Of a stretch of DNA of 64,000 nucleotides, positions 11,316 to 18,287 are shown in pieces. The stretch is from contig NZ_AP023360.1 in the NCBI RefSeq assembly GCF_018326265.1, forward strand, positions 2,347,501-2,411,500, written 5' to 3'. The position numbers and the translations under genes are program-made. Source of the DNA: Catellatospora sp. IY07-71. GTDB lineage: Bacteria > Actinomycetota > Actinomycetes > Mycobacteriales > Micromonosporaceae. The notes below the pieces were generated by a model. That model did no database searches, was not told where the DNA came from, and saw nothing but the letters and a program-made list of their open reading frames with translations. Positions within the stretch are counted from its first letter, which is position 1; each line of letters opens with the position of its first letter.

Positions 11316-12896
11316 TTACCGGGGTGCGGGCCCCGTCGGGGTGCCGGCCGTGACCAGTTCGAACTGCAGGTCGGTGCGCGAGTTGACCCGCGACAGGATC
11401 GTCTCGACCGGAGCGTAGTGGTTCCACTCGTCGGCATTGGTGCACGCGCCCTGACCCGGGTCGCCGTACTTGAGGATGCCGACCGCCTTGCCGTCGGACT
11501 CGGTGAACAGCGGGCCGCCGCTGTCGCCGGGGCGGGCGCAGATCTTCACCGAGATCAGCACGCCCTTCTTCACGACGGTGCCACAGCGCGTGCCGGGCTG
11601 GTAGCCCGCGCCCGCGCCGGAGTCGATGATCTTCTCACCGGCGGCGGGGGTGTAACCCGAACCGGTGGCGCACACGACCGAGCCGACCAGGACGTTGGCC
11701 AGCGGGGTGACGCCGGTGACCGGGATGGTGCCGCCACCCGGGCAGCCGCCGGGGCACCACTCGTTGATCAGGCCGCCGGAGACGGACCGCGCCGTGCTGC
11801 GCAGCTGCACCTGGCCGCCGTTCCAGAAGTTCGCCGTGCGCGTGTCCGCGTACGGCATGATCGCGTAGTCGTAGGGGCTGACCCCGGCGATGTTCTCGCC
11901 GAGCGCCGCGCGCAGCGTGGCGTCGGGGTGCTCGACCACCACGGGCATCTTCTCCACCAGGTAGCGGTGCCAGGTGTCGTCGATGCGGCTGTGCGTCGCG
12001 GTATTGAGCACGCAGTGCCCGGCGGTGAGCACGAAGCGCTCCCCGGTCTTCTGCGAGCGCAGCACGTAGCCCGTGGTGCAGCCGCCGACCGTGCCGTTGT
12101 CCCGCGGGACGTCCAGCCGGATGCCGCTGCGCAGCGGCGGCTGCAGGCAGTTCAGCGGGTCGCACGACTTCGGCACACCGGCCGGGCGCGGGCTGCGGTG
12201 CAGCCGGGCCGCGCCGCCCGCACGGGTCACGGCGGGGCTGACGCCGGTCAGGTCGACGCCCGCCGGGGCGCTCACCACGACCTGGTTGGACGGCGCGTCC
12301 ACCGCGATCTCCACGTCGGTGCGCCCGGCCAGGTCGGCGGACAGCTTCGCCGCCGTGGCCTGGAGCTGCTTGAGCGAGCGCGTGGCGGGCACGGCCCGCA
12401 CGTGGGCGGCGTCGGCGACCCCGGCGAGCGCGGGCTGGAGCAGGTCGGGCTTGGTCATGCCGACCCGCAGCACGCCGCCCGCCTCCTGGTCCAGCCACAG
12501 CCCGGCGTACGCGTCGGGCAGGCTCGCCGACAGGCGCTGCGCCAGCTCGGGCGCCGACTGCTGCAGCGCGAGCCGGCGCACCGCCTCGGCCTCGCTGATG
12601 CCGTACTGCGCGCGCAGGAAGGCGACCGAGTGCGGCGTGGCGAGCGCGCCGGGGCTCGCGGTGGTGGCGTTCTTGGCCGGGCCGACGGGTGCGGCGCTGC
12701 GGCCGGTCAGCGGCTGGACGGCGCCGCCGCGCAGCGCTCCGGGCTGCCCGGCGGCGGGTGCGGCTTCGGCGGCGGGTTCGGCCGCGGGCTCGTGCCACGC
12801 GGCGGGGATCACTCCTGCGGCCGCCAGGGTGCCCACACTCAGGGCGACCGCGGTGGCGGCGATGACGGACATGATGACGCGACGGTTTCGCGACAC
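11316..12896 (-). CDS. Secreted trypsin-like serine protease (S1 fold)
   Basis: A 526-residue secreted protein with a signal peptide at residues 1-28 (hydrophobic VIMSVIAATAVALSVGTLAAAG). A propeptide-like region to about residue 245 contains an Ala-rich linker and an alpha/beta segment. The chymotrypsin-fold domain has the full triad: His294 (LTAGHC), Asp343 (PYDYAIM) and Ser459 (RPGDSGGPL). Several Cys pairs fit disulphides. The large N-terminal part resembles prosegments of streptogrisin-like proteases, which suggests activation outside the cell. The GTG start has GGGGAGGTC upstream. Substrate is unknown. Confidence 0.85.
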   Translation of the reverse strand: MSRNRRVIMSVIAATAVALSVGTLAAAGVIPAAWHEPAAEPAAEAAPAAGQPGALRGGAVQPLTGRSAAPVGPAKNATTASPGALATPHSVAFLRAQYGISEAEAVRRLALQQSAPELAQRLSASLPDAYAGLWLDQEAGGVLRVGMTKPDLLQPALAGVADAAHVRAVPATRSLKQLQATAAKLSADLAGRTDVEIAVDAPSNQVVVSAPAGVDLTGVSPAVTRAGGAARLHRSPRPAGVPKSCDPLNCLQPPLRSGIRLDVPRDNGTVGGCTTGYVLRSQKTGERFVLTAGHCVLNTATHSRIDDTWHRYLVEKMPVVVEHPDATLRAALGENIAGVSPYDYAIMPYADTRTANFWNGGQVQLRSTARSVSGGLINEWCPGGCPGGGTIPVTGVTPLANVLVGSVVCATGSGYTPAAGEKIIDSGAGAGYQPGTRCGTVVKKGVLISVKICARPGDSGGPLFTESDGKAVGILKYGDPGQGACTNADEWNHYAPVETILSRVNSRTDLQFELVTAGTPTGPAPR

Positions 12897-12967: not shown

Positions 12968-13942
12968 CTACGGGCGCACCACCAGGCGAAACCCCAGATG
13001 GCAGGTGGAGGTGTCGACCGCCTGCGGCATGCGGGCCGCGGGCCGGTAACGGCGGCAGTAGTTCGGCGCGCACAGGAACGAGCCGCCCTTCATCACCCGG
13101 CGCGGAATGCGCACGCCCGGCGTCGCCGGGTCGTAGCTGCCCTGCTCCGTGGCTCCGCGCGGGCCGGCGGGCGCGCAGCAGGCGACGGTCGCGCCGGGCC
13201 GGTGGGCGCCGTACCAGTCCGACGTCCACTCCCACACGTTGCCGATCATGTCGGACAGGCCGAACGCGTTGGGTGGGAAGGAGCCGACTGGCGCGGTGCT
13301 CTCGTAGCCGTCGGCGGCCAGGTTGAGCACCGGGAACTCGCCCTGCCAGACGTTAGCCATGTGCACCCCGCCCGGCGTCAGCTCGGCGCCCCAGGCGAAC
13401 TCGGCCGGCTCGGCGGCGCCGCCGCTCGCGGCGTACTCCCACTCGGCCTCGGTGGGCAGGTCGCCCCCGGCCCAGGCCGCGTACGCGGCGACGTCGGCCC
13501 AGGCCACGTGCACCACGGGGTGGTCGTCCAGGCCGTCGATCGAGGAACCCGGCCCGTACGGCCGCCGCCAGTCCGCGCCCGGCACGAAGTGCCACCAGCC
13601 GGTGATGTCGCGCAGGTCGACGCGGCGCCGCGGCTTGACGAACACCACCGAGGCGGGCACCAGCAGCGACGGGTCGGCGCCCGGGTAGTCGGCCGGGTCG
13701 GGGGCGGTCTCGGCGACGGTGACGTGCCCGGTGGCCCGGACGAACGCGCGGAACTCCCGGTTGGTGACCGGGAGCCGGTCGATCCAGAAGCCGCCGACCC
13801 GCGCCGTGTGCGCGGGCGCCTCCTCCGGGTAGTGCGCGTCGGAGCCCATCCGGAACGTGCCGCCGGGCAGCCACACCATGCCGGGACGCGGCGGCTTCTC
13901 GCCGTCGCGTCCCGGGCGGGCAAGCGTGATCGGTTCGCTCAC
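12968..13942 (-). CDS. Formylglycine-generating enzyme (sulfatase-activating)
   Basis: Oxidises the active-site cysteine of sulfatases to formylglycine in the cytoplasm. At 324 residues it has the normal length for this family. It begins MVWLPGGTFRMGSD and has FWIDRLPVTNREF, LPTEAEWEYAASGG and MIGNVWEWTSDWY. The C-terminal active site, KGGSFLCAPNYCRRYRPAAR, holds the catalytic pair Cys291 and Cys296; DTSTCHLGFR follows. These match the copper-dependent FGE of Streptomyces. Its GTG start overlaps the stop of the HdeD-like gene (GTGA), so translation is probably coupled. A candidate client sulfatase is encoded 1.6 kb away at 15560. Confidence 0.92.
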   Translation of the reverse strand: MSEPITLARPGRDGEKPPRPGMVWLPGGTFRMGSDAHYPEEAPAHTARVGGFWIDRLPVTNREFRAFVRATGHVTVAETAPDPADYPGADPSLLVPASVVFVKPRRRVDLRDITGWWHFVPGADWRRPYGPGSSIDGLDDHPVVHVAWADVAAYAAWAGGDLPTEAEWEYAASGGAAEPAEFAWGAELTPGGVHMANVWQGEFPVLNLAADGYESTAPVGSFPPNAFGLSDMIGNVWEWTSDWYGAHRPGATVACCAPAGPRGATEQGSYDPATPGVRIPRRVMKGGSFLCAPNYCRRYRPAARMPQAVDTSTCHLGFRLVVRP

Positions 13943-14640
13943 GGCAGTCCTGCGGCCTTGGCCTGCTTGTTCAGGTCACGGACGCGGAACGCCATGATGA
14001 AGTCGGTGATGCCGCGGGCCAGGCAGATCGCGCCGACCAGCACGATGAGCAGCTCGAACGAGCGGAACCAGCGGCCCGCCGCCCAGAAGCCCAGCAGCAC
14101 CTCGATGATGCCGATGATCAGGCCGAGCCACCAGCCGTCGTGCTCCTTCTTGGTGAGGAAGGCCAGCACGATGTCGGCCGCTCCCTTGAACAGCAGGTAC
14201 CACCCGATGAAGGCGGCCAGCCAGAACACCGTGCCGCCGGGGTTGACCCAGCAGACGATGCCGGTGATCAGGAACAGCACGCCGAGGATGGCGTGCAGCC
14301 AGCGCCAGCCGGGCGCGGTGAACGCCTGGATCAGCTCGAACACGCCCGCGACCAGCACGATGATGCCGGCCAGCGCGGCGATGGTGCCGAGGCTGCGCAC
14401 CGGCTGCTGGTTGTAGGCCAGCACGAACCAGCTGACGATGATCCAGCAGACGCCGGTGATGAGGAACAGCCACCACGGCACCTTCGACGCCATCGTCGCC
14501 TGTCCCGTGGTGAACACGTCCGTGCCCGCGGTGCCGGGCGGCACCGAGCCGGGCCTGGCGGTGGTCGGCGCGCTCGCCGCGCCGGCCGCAGGCTTCATGC
14601 CGGGCTGCCCGGTGCTGGGACTGGGCGTTGCGGTGCTCAT
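13939..14640 (-). CDS. HdeD/DUF308-family membrane protein
   Basis: A 233-residue protein with a Ser/Pro/Gly-rich cytoplasmic N-terminus (1-50), then six hydrophobic helices from WWLFLITGVCWIIVSWFVL onward. The repeated pattern WxxxLITGIxxI...GxFELIQAF...GWRWLHAILGVLFLITGI is typical of DUF308/HdeD-like proteins, linked in E. coli to acid resistance. The function in actinomycetes is unknown. It lies directly upstream of the FGE gene with a 4-nt overlap. An upstream GGGAGG supports the start. Confidence 0.75.
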   Translation of the reverse strand: MSTATPSPSTGQPGMKPAAGAASAPTTARPGSVPPGTAGTDVFTTGQATMASKVPWWLFLITGVCWIIVSWFVLAYNQQPVRSLGTIAALAGIIVLVAGVFELIQAFTAPGWRWLHAILGVLFLITGIVCWVNPGGTVFWLAAFIGWYLLFKGAADIVLAFLTKKEHDGWWLGLIIGIIEVLLGFWAAGRWFRSFELLIVLVGAICLARGITDFIMAFRVRDLNKQAKAAGLP

Positions 14641-14738
14641 CTGTCCTCCCGGAAGTGAGTTTCATCCGCTTGCAGACTATGCACCGGGTCATCCGCTGAT
14701 GCGGTATTTCGACAATTCGTCCATGATTGCCCGCGTAG

Positions 14739-15458
14739 TCACTCGAGCCCGGACAGGGCGCCGGCCACCGCGAAACCGAGCACCGCCAGCAGGCCCGTCG
14801 TCTTGCCGCCGAGCTTGTACGCCTCCGGGATCATCGAGTCGGCCAGCATGGTCAGCACCGCGCCGGCCGCGAAAGCCTCGATGTAACCGCCCTCGGAGCC
14901 CGGCACCATCTTGTACGCGACGGCGCCGATGGCCGCGGACAGGGCGGAGACGGCCACGACACCCCACCACACCCGGTACGCCTGGCCCCGGGTGTGCCCG
15001 GCGGCGCGCATGAAGGCGCTGGCGCCGAGCGCCTCCGGCAGGTTGGAGATGAAGACCGCGACGAGGAAGGCGATCGCCACCTCGCCGCCCGCGGCCACCC
15101 CGATGCCCAGCACCAGCGACTCGGGGATGCCGTCGAGCAGCGCGCCCACCACGATGGACCGGTCGGCGGAGGCGGCGCCCATGCTCTGCCGCCCGGTGAC
15201 CAGGTGGTCCACGAAGAAGAACACCAGCGCGCCCAGGCCGAACGCGGAGAACATCAGCAGGTCCTGGTTGAACCCGGTGGGCACCAGTTCGTAGGCGATC
15301 GCGGCGAGCAGCGCCCCGGCGCCGAAGCCCATCACCAGGCCGACCCGCGAGTCGGACACCGGCCGCTCGCGGAACGCCAGCCAGGCGCCGACGACCAGCG
15401 AGAACGCCGCTATGCCACCCCAGGCGGCGGCTTCCAGTGCAGTCACGCGCGCCCCCAT
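14739..15458 (-). CDS. ZIP-family metal transporter
   Basis: A 239-residue polytopic protein with about eight helices and the ZIP metal path in altered form. Helix IV reads FLVAVFISNLPEALGAS instead of the usual HNxPEG, and helix V-like GALLDGIPESLVLGIG keeps the PES core. ZIP proteins import divalent metals such as Zn or Fe, but loss of the helix IV His makes the ion uncertain. The ATG at 15458 lacks a clear ribosome site; a GTG at 15446 is a good alternative. It is divergent from the sulfatase gene, and the 101-bp gap should hold both promoters. Confidence 0.7.
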   Translation of the reverse strand: MGARVTALEAAAWGGIAAFSLVVGAWLAFRERPVSDSRVGLVMGFGAGALLAAIAYELVPTGFNQDLLMFSAFGLGALVFFFVDHLVTGRQSMGAASADRSIVVGALLDGIPESLVLGIGVAAGGEVAIAFLVAVFISNLPEALGASAFMRAAGHTRGQAYRVWWGVVAVSALSAAIGAVAYKMVPGSEGGYIEAFAAGAVLTMLADSMIPEAYKLGGKTTGLLAVLGFAVAGALSGLE

Positions 15459-15559
15459 CGTCTGCACGCGACGGTAGCAAGCCAATCCACCCGAAAACGG
15501 GAACATGCCTCGTATTGGGCGGAATACTGGATCGCGGTAGGACGACGTCTGGAGGAGAC

Positions 15560-17383
15560 ATGGCTCCGAGCCGGTCCACGGCGAAGAAGGCTCCCGCGAA
15601 GAAGGCTCCGGCCAAGCAGGCTGTCGCGAAGAAGAGCACCGCCGCCCGGAAGGCGGTGGGGCCGTCCGCACCCGTCACAGAGCAGGCCGCGCCCGCCGGA
15701 GCGATGAAGAAGACGGCCGCCGCCGCGCCGGTGGCGTCCGCCGCTCCGCGTAAGGCGGGACCGGGCAAGAAGGCGGCCGCGCCCGCCGCGGCGAAGAAGG
15801 CCCCGCCCAGCCGGGCCACCGCACGGGCGGGACGGGGCCCGTCGCGTACCCCCGCCGCCCGCGCCGCCGCGACCGGCGGCGGCCGCGGGCGCAAGCCGAA
15901 CATCCTGGTCATCTGGGGCGACGACATCGGCATCACCAACCTGAGCTGCTACAGCGACGGGCTGATGGGCTACCGCACGCCCAACATCGACCGGATCGCC
16001 GACGAGGGGGTGCGCTTCACCGACTACTACGGCGAGCAGAGCTGCACCGCGGGCCGCTCGGCCTTCCTGACCGGCCAGGCGGTGTTCCGCACCGGCCTGT
16101 CCAAGGTCGGTCTCCCGGGCGCGGACCTGGGCCTGCACGCCGCCGACCCGACCATCGCCGAGCTGCTCAAACCGCACGGGTACGCCACCGGCCAGTTCGG
16201 CAAGAACCACCTCGGCGACCGGGACGAGTTCCTGCCCACCGCCCACGGCTTCGACGAGTTCTTCGGCAACCTCTACCACCTCAACGCCGAGGAGGAGCCC
16301 GAGCAGGCCGACTATCCTGATCCGCGCTCCTTCCCCGACTTCCGCAGGCGGTTCGGGCCCCGGGGGGTGCTGCACTGCTGGGCGCTGCCCGGCGGCGGCC
16401 AGAAGATCGAGGACACCGGGCCGCTGACCCGCAAGCGCATGGAGACCATCGACGACGAGGTGTTCGCGCACGCGGCCGACTTCATCCAGCGGCAGGCCGA
16501 GGCGGACACGCCGTTCTTCGTCTGGTTCAACACCACGCACATGCACTTCAAGACGCATCCGCGCCCCGAGATCAAGGGCTGGGCGGGCCGCTGGCAGTCC
16601 GACTACCACGACGTGATGGTCGACCACGACCGCATCGTCGGTGAGCTGCTGAGCCTGCTGGACCAGCTCGGCATCGCCGACGACACCATCGTCATGTACA
16701 GCACCGACAACGGCCCGCACATGAACACCTGGCCGGACGCCGGCATGACGCCGTTCCGCAACGAGAAGAACTCCAACTGGGAGGGCGCCTACCGGGTGCC
16801 GGCGCTGCTGCGCTGGCCCGGCCGAATCCCTGCGGGCCGGGTCGCCAACGAGATCGTCAGCCACCTCGACCTGCTGCCGACGCTGCTGGCCGCGGCGGGG
16901 GACCCCGACATCGTCGAGGAGCTGAAACAGGGGCACGAGGCGGCGGGCAAGACGTTCAAGGTGCACCTGGACGGCTTCGACCTGCTGCCGTACCTCACCG
17001 ACGACGAGCCGCACAGCCCCCGCGAGGGCTTCTTCTACTTCTCCGACGACGGCGACCTCACCGCGCTCCGGTTCGACAACTGGAAGCTGGTGTTCATGGA
17101 GCAGCGGGCCCCGGGCACGCTGCGGGTCTGGGCCGAGCCGTTCACGCCGCTGCGGGTGCCCAAGATCTTCAACCTGCGCACCGACCCCTACGAGCGGGCC
17201 GACATCACCTCGAACTCCTACTACGAGTGGATGCTCGACCGCGCGTACATGCTGCCGGCGGCGCAGAAGCTGGTCGGGGACTTCCTGGCCACCTTCGAGG
17301 AGTTCCCGCCCCGGCAGGAGGCGGCCAGCTTCACCGTCGACCAGATCATGGACAAGATGCTGGACGGCATAGGGAGCCACTGA
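15560..17383 (+). CDS. Sulfatase with a lysine/alanine-rich histone-like N-terminal tail
   Basis: A 607-residue sulfatase of the alkaline-phosphatase superfamily. The catalytic domain starts at about residue 112 (KPNILVIWGDDIG, metal Asp pair). It has the formylglycine motif CTAGR (Cys162), GKNHLGD, FNTTHMHF and YSTDNGPH. CTAGR is a CxAxR variant that FGE can modify. The first 111 residues are unusual: PAKK/AAKK/APRK repeats like histone H1 or HU tails, with no signal peptide, so the protein is probably cytoplasmic or nucleoid-associated. The ATG follows GGAGGAGAC. The stop lies 1 nt before the HAD gene, indicating an operon. The substrate is unknown. Confidence 0.88.
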   Translation: MAPSRSTAKKAPAKKAPAKQAVAKKSTAARKAVGPSAPVTEQAAPAGAMKKTAAAAPVASAAPRKAGPGKKAAAPAAAKKAPPSRATARAGRGPSRTPAARAAATGGGRGRKPNILVIWGDDIGITNLSCYSDGLMGYRTPNIDRIADEGVRFTDYYGEQSCTAGRSAFLTGQAVFRTGLSKVGLPGADLGLHAADPTIAELLKPHGYATGQFGKNHLGDRDEFLPTAHGFDEFFGNLYHLNAEEEPEQADYPDPRSFPDFRRRFGPRGVLHCWALPGGGQKIEDTGPLTRKRMETIDDEVFAHAADFIQRQAEADTPFFVWFNTTHMHFKTHPRPEIKGWAGRWQSDYHDVMVDHDRIVGELLSLLDQLGIADDTIVMYSTDNGPHMNTWPDAGMTPFRNEKNSNWEGAYRVPALLRWPGRIPAGRVANEIVSHLDLLPTLLAAAGDPDIVEELKQGHEAAGKTFKVHLDGFDLLPYLTDDEPHSPREGFFYFSDDGDLTALRFDNWKLVFMEQRAPGTLRVWAEPFTPLRVPKIFNLRTDPYERADITSNSYYEWMLDRAYMLPAAQKLVGDFLATFEEFPPRQEAASFTVDQIMDKMLDGIGSH

Positions 17384-17384
17384 C

Positions 17385-18287
17385 GTGGCCTTCCTCCCTT
17401 CCTGGCGACCCGGCCCCACCCGCGACGCCATCGCCTCGTTCCTGGACGAGGCGCTGGCGCTGCCGCCCGAGCAACGGGTCGCGGTGCTCGACAACGACGG
17501 CACGCTGTGGTGCGAGCGCCCCGGCTACATCCAGTACGAATTCCTGGTGCGCACCCTGCACCAGGCGGTGGCGCACGACCCGGGCCTGGCCGAACGCGCC
17601 GAGTACCGGGCGCTGCTGGACGGCGACCACGCCGCGCTCGGCGAGCTGGGCCTGCAGCGGGTCGCGCTGGCGCTGCTGGAGCTGTGCGCGGGCTGGACGC
17701 CGGACGAGTTCACCGGCCGGGCGCGCGACTTCGTCTACACCGAGAAGCACCCGGACTGGGGCGTGCCCTACCCCCGGCTCGTCTACCAGCCGATGCAGGA
17801 GCTGCTGGAGGCGCTGCGCGCGCACGGCTTCGCGGTGTTCATCGTGACCGGCGGCGGCACCGAGTTCGTCCGCGCGATCAGCCGCGACCTGTACGGCGTC
17901 GCGCCCGACGACGTGGTCGGCACGCTGGTGGAGTACCACTTCGAGGAGCGCGGCGAGGGCCCGGCGCTGGTGCGCACCGCCCAGGCGCTCGGCGAGGTCA
18001 ACGAGGGCCGGGCCAAGGTCGAGCACATCCAGACGCAGCTCGGGCGCCGTCCCATCTTCGCGGCGGGCAACTCCGCGGGCGACCGGGAGATGCTGGAGTA
18101 CGCGCAGGCCGCGGGCTCGCCCAGCCTGGCCCTGCTGATCGACCACGACGACGGGGAGCGCGAGTACGCGTACGCCTCGGTCGGGGTCACCACCACCGAC
18201 ACCGAGCCGATCGCCGACATCGGCCGCCGCGAGGGCTGGACCGTGGTCAGCATGCGCGACGACTGGGCCACTGTGTTCCCGGCCTGA
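17385..18287 (+). CDS. HAD-family hydrolase (phosphatase)
   Basis: A 300-residue cytoplasmic haloacid-dehalogenase-type hydrolase. Motif I is VLDNDGTLW (Asp36 nucleophile, Asp38), motif II is FIVTGGGTEF, the Lys region is near EGRAKVEHI, and motif IV is FAAGNSAGDREML. This is a phosphoserine-phosphatase-like subgroup with an alpha-helical cap (about 55-140). It starts with GTG 1 nt after the sulfatase stop, so it is co-translated with the sulfatase. Joint action on a sulfated and phosphorylated compound is possible but not shown. Its C-terminal tail contains DDGEREYAYASVG. Confidence 0.8.
   Translation: MAFLPSWRPGPTRDAIASFLDEALALPPEQRVAVLDNDGTLWCERPGYIQYEFLVRTLHQAVAHDPGLAERAEYRALLDGDHAALGELGLQRVALALLELCAGWTPDEFTGRARDFVYTEKHPDWGVPYPRLVYQPMQELLEALRAHGFAVFIVTGGGTEFVRAISRDLYGVAPDDVVGTLVEYHFEERGEGPALVRTAQALGEVNEGRAKVEHIQTQLGRRPIFAAGNSAGDREMLEYAQAAGSPSLALLIDHDDGEREYAYASVGVTTTDTEPIADIGRREGWTVVSMRDDWATVFPA

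Follow-up and report, generated by a model that had tools for sequence, protein, structure and literature searches.

The DNA analysed here (the window) is a 64,000-nucleotide stretch of Catellatospora sp. IY07-71 that contains a sulfatase gene with a long basic N-terminal tail. The features of the locus are the following:

15560–17383, plus strand: sulfatase gene, starting with the ATG at 15560, 607-aa product
15551–15556, plus strand: Shine-Dalgarno sequence GGAGGA of the tail ATG (from the sequence)
15560–15892, plus strand: N-terminal basic, K/A/P/R-rich tail of 111 aa, predicted to be disordered (composition, pLDDT below 50, genus-wide presence)
15893–17383, plus strand: sulfatase catalytic domain (PF00884) and Sulfatase_C, including the stop codon (Pfam)
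16043–16057, plus strand: formylglycine motif C-T-A-G-R (Cys162), CTAGR in 98 of 98 rows
17385–18287, plus strand: HAD-superfamily phosphatase (Pfam HAD, E = 1e-14)
12968–13942, minus strand: formylglycine-generating enzyme (FGE/SUMF1; PF03781, E = 8e-79)
13939–14640, minus strand: DUF308/HdeD-like membrane protein of the same gene block (Pfam)
14739–15458, minus strand: ZIP-like metal transporter, divergent from the sulfatase (PF02535, E = 2.5e-6, under the gathering score), with its start ATG chosen by eye

The mechanical open reading frame of the sulfatase extends upstream to a GTG at 15437, and the GGAGGA sequence ends 3 bases before the ATG at 15560. The 111-residue tail that follows this ATG is composed of 39 alanines, 15 lysines, 14 prolines, 10 arginines (25 basic residues in all) and a single acidic residue, among others, and acidic residues prevail in the remainder of the sequence (76 D/E vs 47 K/R). 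Such a composition is confined to this place in the window: when all 52,979 stop-free 111-aa stretches in six frames were examined, only 10 contained at least 15 lysines and at most one acidic residue, and all 10 lie at the sulfatase tail. Outside positions 15300–15960 of the window, the maximum was 10 lysines per 111-aa stretch, and 4 where D+E was at most one. AlphaFold2 assigned pLDDT values below 50 to residues 1–109 and to three stretches of the domain (388–405, 519–521 and 604–607), with values of at least 85 in most ten-residue blocks of the domain, and the tail is predicted to be intrinsically disordered. Long, K/A/P-rich, poor in acids and, as judged from its low pLDDT, disordered, it has the features of the H1-like/HU-tail class. 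This is in agreement with an earlier sequence-only reading of the locus, which had described a histone H1/HU-like tail on an intact sulfatase and placed it at 15560–15895; composition and the complete PF00884 domain bear this out, with the tail occupying 111 codons at 15560–15892. The same reading had noted the absence of a signal peptide, and here too composition concurs: the tail contains only four L/I/V residues and no F/W/Y/C, and thus no hydrophobic segment of the kind found in the N-terminal signal peptide of secreted sulfatases was seen in it.

The PF00884 match spans residues 113–447 (E = 5e-50, 170.9 bits vs a cut-off of 25), and the Sulfatase_C match spans residues 486–589. In type I sulfatases, the formylglycine motif is formed by the cysteine of a C-x-(P/A)-x-R sequence, and the CTAGR sequence, present in all 98 rows (among which L001 and L090 are one gene), conforms to it. 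Residues D121, D122, K215, H217, D383, N384 and K403, which we take to be metal/sulfate-binding by analogy with arylsulfatase A, are invariant in a 45-row alignment. When the folded part was compared with 1000 chains, the closest chain among the matches listed was PsFucS1 (7aj0; Z 41.4, rmsd 2.6, 452 residues aligned), presumably a fucan sulfatase; human sulfatases gave Z values of about 38 (37.5–37.9 for human arylsulfatase A). The best explanation of these sequence features is that catalysis resides in an ordinary sulfatase domain, the tail aside. The CTAGR sequence is mentioned in PMC8909960, which is concerned with another matter than the Catellatospora sulfatase.

Homologues were collected as the best 80 of at least 584 confirmed in named genomes, with 67–82% identity, and are spread over Actinomycetota, Cyanobacteriota, Chloroflexota, Pseudomonadota and other phyla. 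In 71 of these 80, a script placed a possible start no more than 12 codons from the domain (a count that, judged by eye, wrongly includes L001, which has the tail, and L072, which has a signal peptide), and N-termini resembling a signal peptide were found in 8 of the 80. Because most homologues start near the domain and few begin with a signal-peptide-like segment, the lack of a signal peptide is, as far as these sequences indicate, usual for this sulfatase subfamily, and the Catellatospora enzyme is probably cytoplasmic. The sequence-only reading had set this enzyme apart as probably intracellular among sulfatases that mostly act outside the cell; the location is likely right, but it is unremarkable in a subfamily in which 71 of 80 homologues start near the domain. 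The sulfatase was also seen in one archaeal metagenome-assembled genome (L006), where contamination is possible.

A single base separates the sulfatase stop codon from the HAD phosphatase gene, and the two genes are probably co-transcribed. The FGE gene is located 1.6 kb from the sulfatase, and its product likely activates it. The block amidohydrolase–HAD–sulfatase–ZIP–DUF308–FGE was found in all four further genomes of the genus that were examined, out of ten (L001 and L165–L167). Among the best 80 of at least 584 homologues, with flanks of up to 7 kb that often end early at contig ends, an FGE relative lies near 44 and a HAD relative near 29; at three tail-less loci of the family, FGE was near in 3/3 and HAD in 1/3. 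Across phyla, the sulfatase is often close to an FGE and a HAD phosphatase (12968–18287 of the window and the 80 loci, best of at least 584). Beyond the block, an open reading frame at 11316–12896 on the minus strand was recognized by eye as a secreted trypsin-like protease (GDSGGPL).

A sulfatase orthologue with the tail is present in 11 of 11 Catellatospora genomes examined, the one containing the window included, with 82–100% identity of the domain. In each of them the tail opens with an ATG preceded by a Shine-Dalgarno-like site, and the frame is open. The tails are 95–152 aa long, contain 0–4 acidic residues, carry a net charge of 0.18–0.24 per residue and are 33–88% identical to the tail of the window. 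The longest (152 aa, L084:1048–1503) contains a tandem ATKAT repeat, ATKATATKATATKA, a sequence that suggests recent slippage. For ten pairs of genus members, hand-chosen from 55 possible, dN/dS was 0.29–0.69 for the tail in all ten and 0.18–0.32 for the domain of the same pairs. The dS of the tail exceeded that of the domain in 9 of the 10 pairs, which suggests some misalignment of repeats in these sequence comparisons. The recurrence of the tailed orthologue, with its ATG and Shine-Dalgarno-like site, in 11 of 11 genomes shows on comparative grounds that the tail is truly coded. The sequence-only reading had named tail-less homologues in all relatives as an observation that would speak against it, and within the genus the tail withstood this comparison in all 11 genomes.

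The charge of the tails was compared with that expected after neutral drift, which was simulated in 220 runs per setting, starting from the 11 tails and at distances of 0.15–0.35. The observed net charge per residue is 0.22 vs 0.11–0.15 after simulated drift, and the observed lysine content is 15% vs 3–9%. Four or fewer acidic residues were retained in 28–55% of the neutral runs, and the low acid count is therefore weak evidence when taken alone. From the excess of observed charge over a model that contains no repeat slippage, which could itself add lysine codons, the positive charge of the tail seems to be held by selection.

Outside the genus the tail was not found. It is missing from 79 of the best 80 of at least 584 homologues, the sole bearer being L001 from Catellatospora tritici, and from all seven strong homologues outside Catellatospora in a sample of 150 genomes of the family, Micromonosporaceae. 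Short N-termini with lysines, of 10, 15 and 23 aa, occur in three of these homologues (the 23-aa one reads MATKKKATAATKAASAKPAASR), and in the other four translation could plausibly start at the domain or close to it. Among the tail-less rows, L098 is only 53% identical and sits on a very long branch, and L095–L097 stand apart from the genus in the tree, so that these rows are homologues but not sure orthologues. In this tree, which was built with a quick method, rooted at the midpoint and calculated without L001 (the same gene as L090) and L058 (whose domain reads 308 aa), the 11 tailed rows are united in a single group, supported by an SH-aLRT value of 100. Because the tailed rows group together and their outside relatives are tail-less, the tail probably arose by a single gain, in or before the Catellatospora ancestor, and the short N-termini with lysines in related genera hint at how it may have begun. 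The survey of close homologues that the sequence-only reading had proposed thus gave a divided answer, with the tail kept in 11/11 genomes of the genus but absent from 79/80 (best 80 of at least 584) and 7/7 homologues beyond it; its absence outside Catellatospora makes it, by this comparison, a genus-specific addition and not part of the enzyme family.

An origin of the tail by copying from another tail gene was considered, and no convincing sign of it emerged. Unmasked blastn gave many short matches of the tail to the sigma factor, H1-like, TopA, Ku, HU and other tail genes, but permutation of synonymous codons left just a weak excess for sigma and TopA: in seven tests, the real score was reached in 5/300 runs for sigma, 11/300 for TopA, 17/300 for the phasin-like protein, 86/300 for hemerythrin, 146/300 for Ku, 154/300 for the H1-like protein and 271/300 for HU, none of which is convincing given the number of tests. 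A profile of the 11 tails had only one other match in the own genome, and this one (E = 0.11) is not convincing either. In the open-licence PMC literature, no paper was found on sulfatases with lysine/alanine-rich extensions or on Catellatospora together with sulfatase.

Similar stretches do occur elsewhere in the genome. Pattern searches based on paired lysine codons (AAGAAG), which gave 3 matches vs 2 in reversed controls, 12 vs 0 and 43 vs 6, led to nine proteins, a number that is a lower bound; four loci from the 43-match pattern (L158, L159, L161 and L162) were read and dropped as not being tails. Pfam names TopA, Ku, HU, an HTH regulator (which came from the pattern with 3 matches vs 2 reversed), a hemerythrin and a sigma-70 factor among the nine, and a phasin-like and an HC2-like (H1-like) protein remained under the Pfam cut-off. 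The longest run that is sufficiently rich in lysine and contains no more than one acid covers the whole open reading frame of the H1-like protein, 127 aa of HU, 120 of the sulfatase, 79 of hemerythrin, 65 of TopA, 47 of the sigma-70 factor, 43 of Ku, 42 of the phasin-like protein and 21 of the HTH regulator, so the sulfatase stretch is among the longest of the nine, and those of the sigma factor and HTH regulator are short or broken by acids. Judged from their Pfam domains, five of the nine have a role on DNA or in transcription, and a sixth, the H1-like protein, would have one by composition only. Hemerythrin, whose tail is N-terminal as in the sulfatase, and the sulfatase itself are two of the longest-tailed among the nine, and both are without a known DNA role. 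The place of the phasin-like protein among the nine is doubtful. Individually, the H1-like protein (L164, C1:2549500-2554000, minus strand) has 355 aa, nearly all in K/A/T repeats; the hemerythrin-domain protein (L163, C1:7398800-7401800) has an N-terminal K/A/T tail of ∼79 aa; Ku (L117, C1, near 1884.8 kb) ends in a C-terminal PAKK/AAKK tail; and the phasin-like protein (L160, C1:4192500-4195800) carries C-terminal lysine/alanine/proline-rich stretches reminiscent of PhaF.

We propose that a cytoplasmic, FGE-activated type I sulfatase may have gained a translated, disordered and polycationic N-terminal tail, which probably grew from a short lysine-bearing N-terminus in or before the genus ancestor and whose length would shift by gain and loss of repeats, with the positive charge held by selection. 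The tail would act as an electrostatic anchor that concentrates the sulfatase on a polyanion inside the cell, with nucleoid DNA as the likeliest partner, in parallel with the tails of HU, TopA, Ku and AlgP/PhaF. We assign anchoring of this kind, to the nucleoid above all, a probability of just under one half, which places it ahead of binding to polyphosphate or RNA, a substrate grip of the HSulf type and a tolerated by-product. The nucleoid is the best guess because the enzyme is probably cytoplasmic and the genome uses such tails mainly on DNA proteins, and binding to DNA, RNA or polyphosphate would fit both the tailed company in the genome and the held charge. Points that speak against a nucleoid anchor include the restriction of the tail to one genus, Catellatospora, the long tails on hemerythrin and sulfatase, neither with a known DNA role, and the short or interrupted stretches of the sigma factor and HTH regulator. 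Similar tails also bind sulfated glycans, as in HBHA (PMC3293801), and may bind polyphosphate.

The tail could instead bind polyphosphate or RNA rather than DNA and place the enzyme at polyphosphate granules or ribosomes. H1-like AlgP, with its KPAA-repeat domain, is prominent in the polyphosphate granule pellet (PMC9239181), and the charge of the tail is better conserved than its sequence, but six of the nine proteins carrying comparable stretches have, or would from their composition be expected to have, a role on DNA or in transcription, and we consider this reading unlikely, though foremost among the alternatives. Next in rank, and likewise improbable, is the possibility that the tail takes hold of a sulfated, polyanionic polymer and passes it on to the active site, in the manner of the HSulf-1/-2 basic domain; the closest structure among the matches listed, PsFucS1, presumably a fucan sulfatase, would be in line with this. 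The HSulf domain is dispensable for small substrates and essential for heparan sulfate recognition, and has been proposed to direct processive desulfation (PMC3890690), and the lysine-rich repeats of HBHA bind sulfated glycans (PMC3293801). However, the Catellatospora sulfatase has no signal peptide, and in HSulf, a secreted enzyme, the domain is inserted into the chain rather than attached to its N-terminus. Furthermore, we know of no intracellular sulfated polymer in Catellatospora sp., and in the sulfatase fold the N-terminus of the first strand generally points away from the active site. We likewise think it improbable that the protein is a polyanion-tracking sulfatase, either an independent bacterial counterpart of the HSulf domain that grips a sulfated or mixed sulfate/phosphate polymer inside the cell or an enzyme of nucleoid-tied desulfation.

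A weakly functional by-product of slippage in a GC-rich genome, tolerated or serving as a solubility aid with no specific partner, would explain the range of tail lengths (95 to 152 aa), tandem repeats such as that of L084, the higher dN/dS of the tail than of the domain and its absence outside Catellatospora. Since the tail is kept in 11/11 genomes, with dN/dS below 1 in 10/10 pairs and a positive charge well above the neutral simulation, we rank this explanation behind the substrate grip. That the tail is untranslated or that translation starts inside it (at Met49 or a GTG), with a mis-annotated upstream part, is suggested by an in-frame ATG at codon 49 and GTGs within the tail, but is highly improbable given the ATG with its Shine-Dalgarno-like site and the open frame in 11/11 genomes, the tail dN/dS below 1 and the lack in the window of any start codon (by eye) between codon 58 and the domain, so that a basic stretch of at least 54 aa would remain anyway.

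If the tail does tie an ordinary metabolic enzyme to the nucleoid or to some other polyanion, actinobacterial H1-like tails would be portable localisation tags and not just DNA-organising parts. The hemerythrin of this genome would then be another example, and the phasin-like protein perhaps one more. The homologue N-termini of 10–23 aa and 95–152 aa suggest a path by which such a tail may lengthen and afterwards be maintained through selection on its charge.

When the Catellatospora sulfatase is set beside known sulfatases, the fold is common to PsFucS1 (7aj0) and human arylsulfatase A, with 29–32% identity in the structural alignment. The classical motif of known sulfatases is CxPxR, whereas CTAGR is found here, and to our knowledge neither of the two enzymes has a comparable tail. 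The tail itself shares its PAKK/AAKK repeats and its charge with those of HU, topoisomerase I and Ku, which the same genome contains, but these are C-terminal and located on DNA-binding proteins, and the sulfatase tail is N-terminal on an enzyme. According to published work, lysine repeats of TopA resemble H1, give processivity and hold TopA on DNA (PMC7398561), and the nucleoid protein HbhA needs its C-terminal domain to bind DNA (PMC10665949); the lysine-rich repeats of HBHA also bind sulfated glycans (PMC3293801). AlgP and PhaF of Pseudomonas resemble the sulfatase, in composition only, in that a lysine/alanine/proline tail is joined to a protein whose main task is a different one, but they are granule proteins with a C-terminal tail and not an enzyme with an N-terminal one. 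According to PMC9239181, KPAA repeats bind DNA and position granules, PhaF is regarded as a tether between granules and the chromosome/nucleoid, and the spacing of polyphosphate granules is also attributed to such tails. Human HSulf-1/-2, as described in PMC11259796 and PMC3890690, are sulfatases with an added, mostly unstructured and very basic region, as in the Catellatospora enzyme; however, they are secreted, their substrate, heparan sulfate, is known, and the basic domain is internal (421–719 of Sulf-2), within the catalytic unit, whereas the basic region is N-terminal here and no signal-like segment accompanies it. The hydrophilic domain of HSulf also contains 13% acidic residues (PMC3890690), compared with 1 of 111 in the Catellatospora tail. 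In summary, the Catellatospora protein joins two known parts, an ordinary sulfatase and a tail of the H1 type, in a genuine fusion specific to its lineage, and does not represent a new class.
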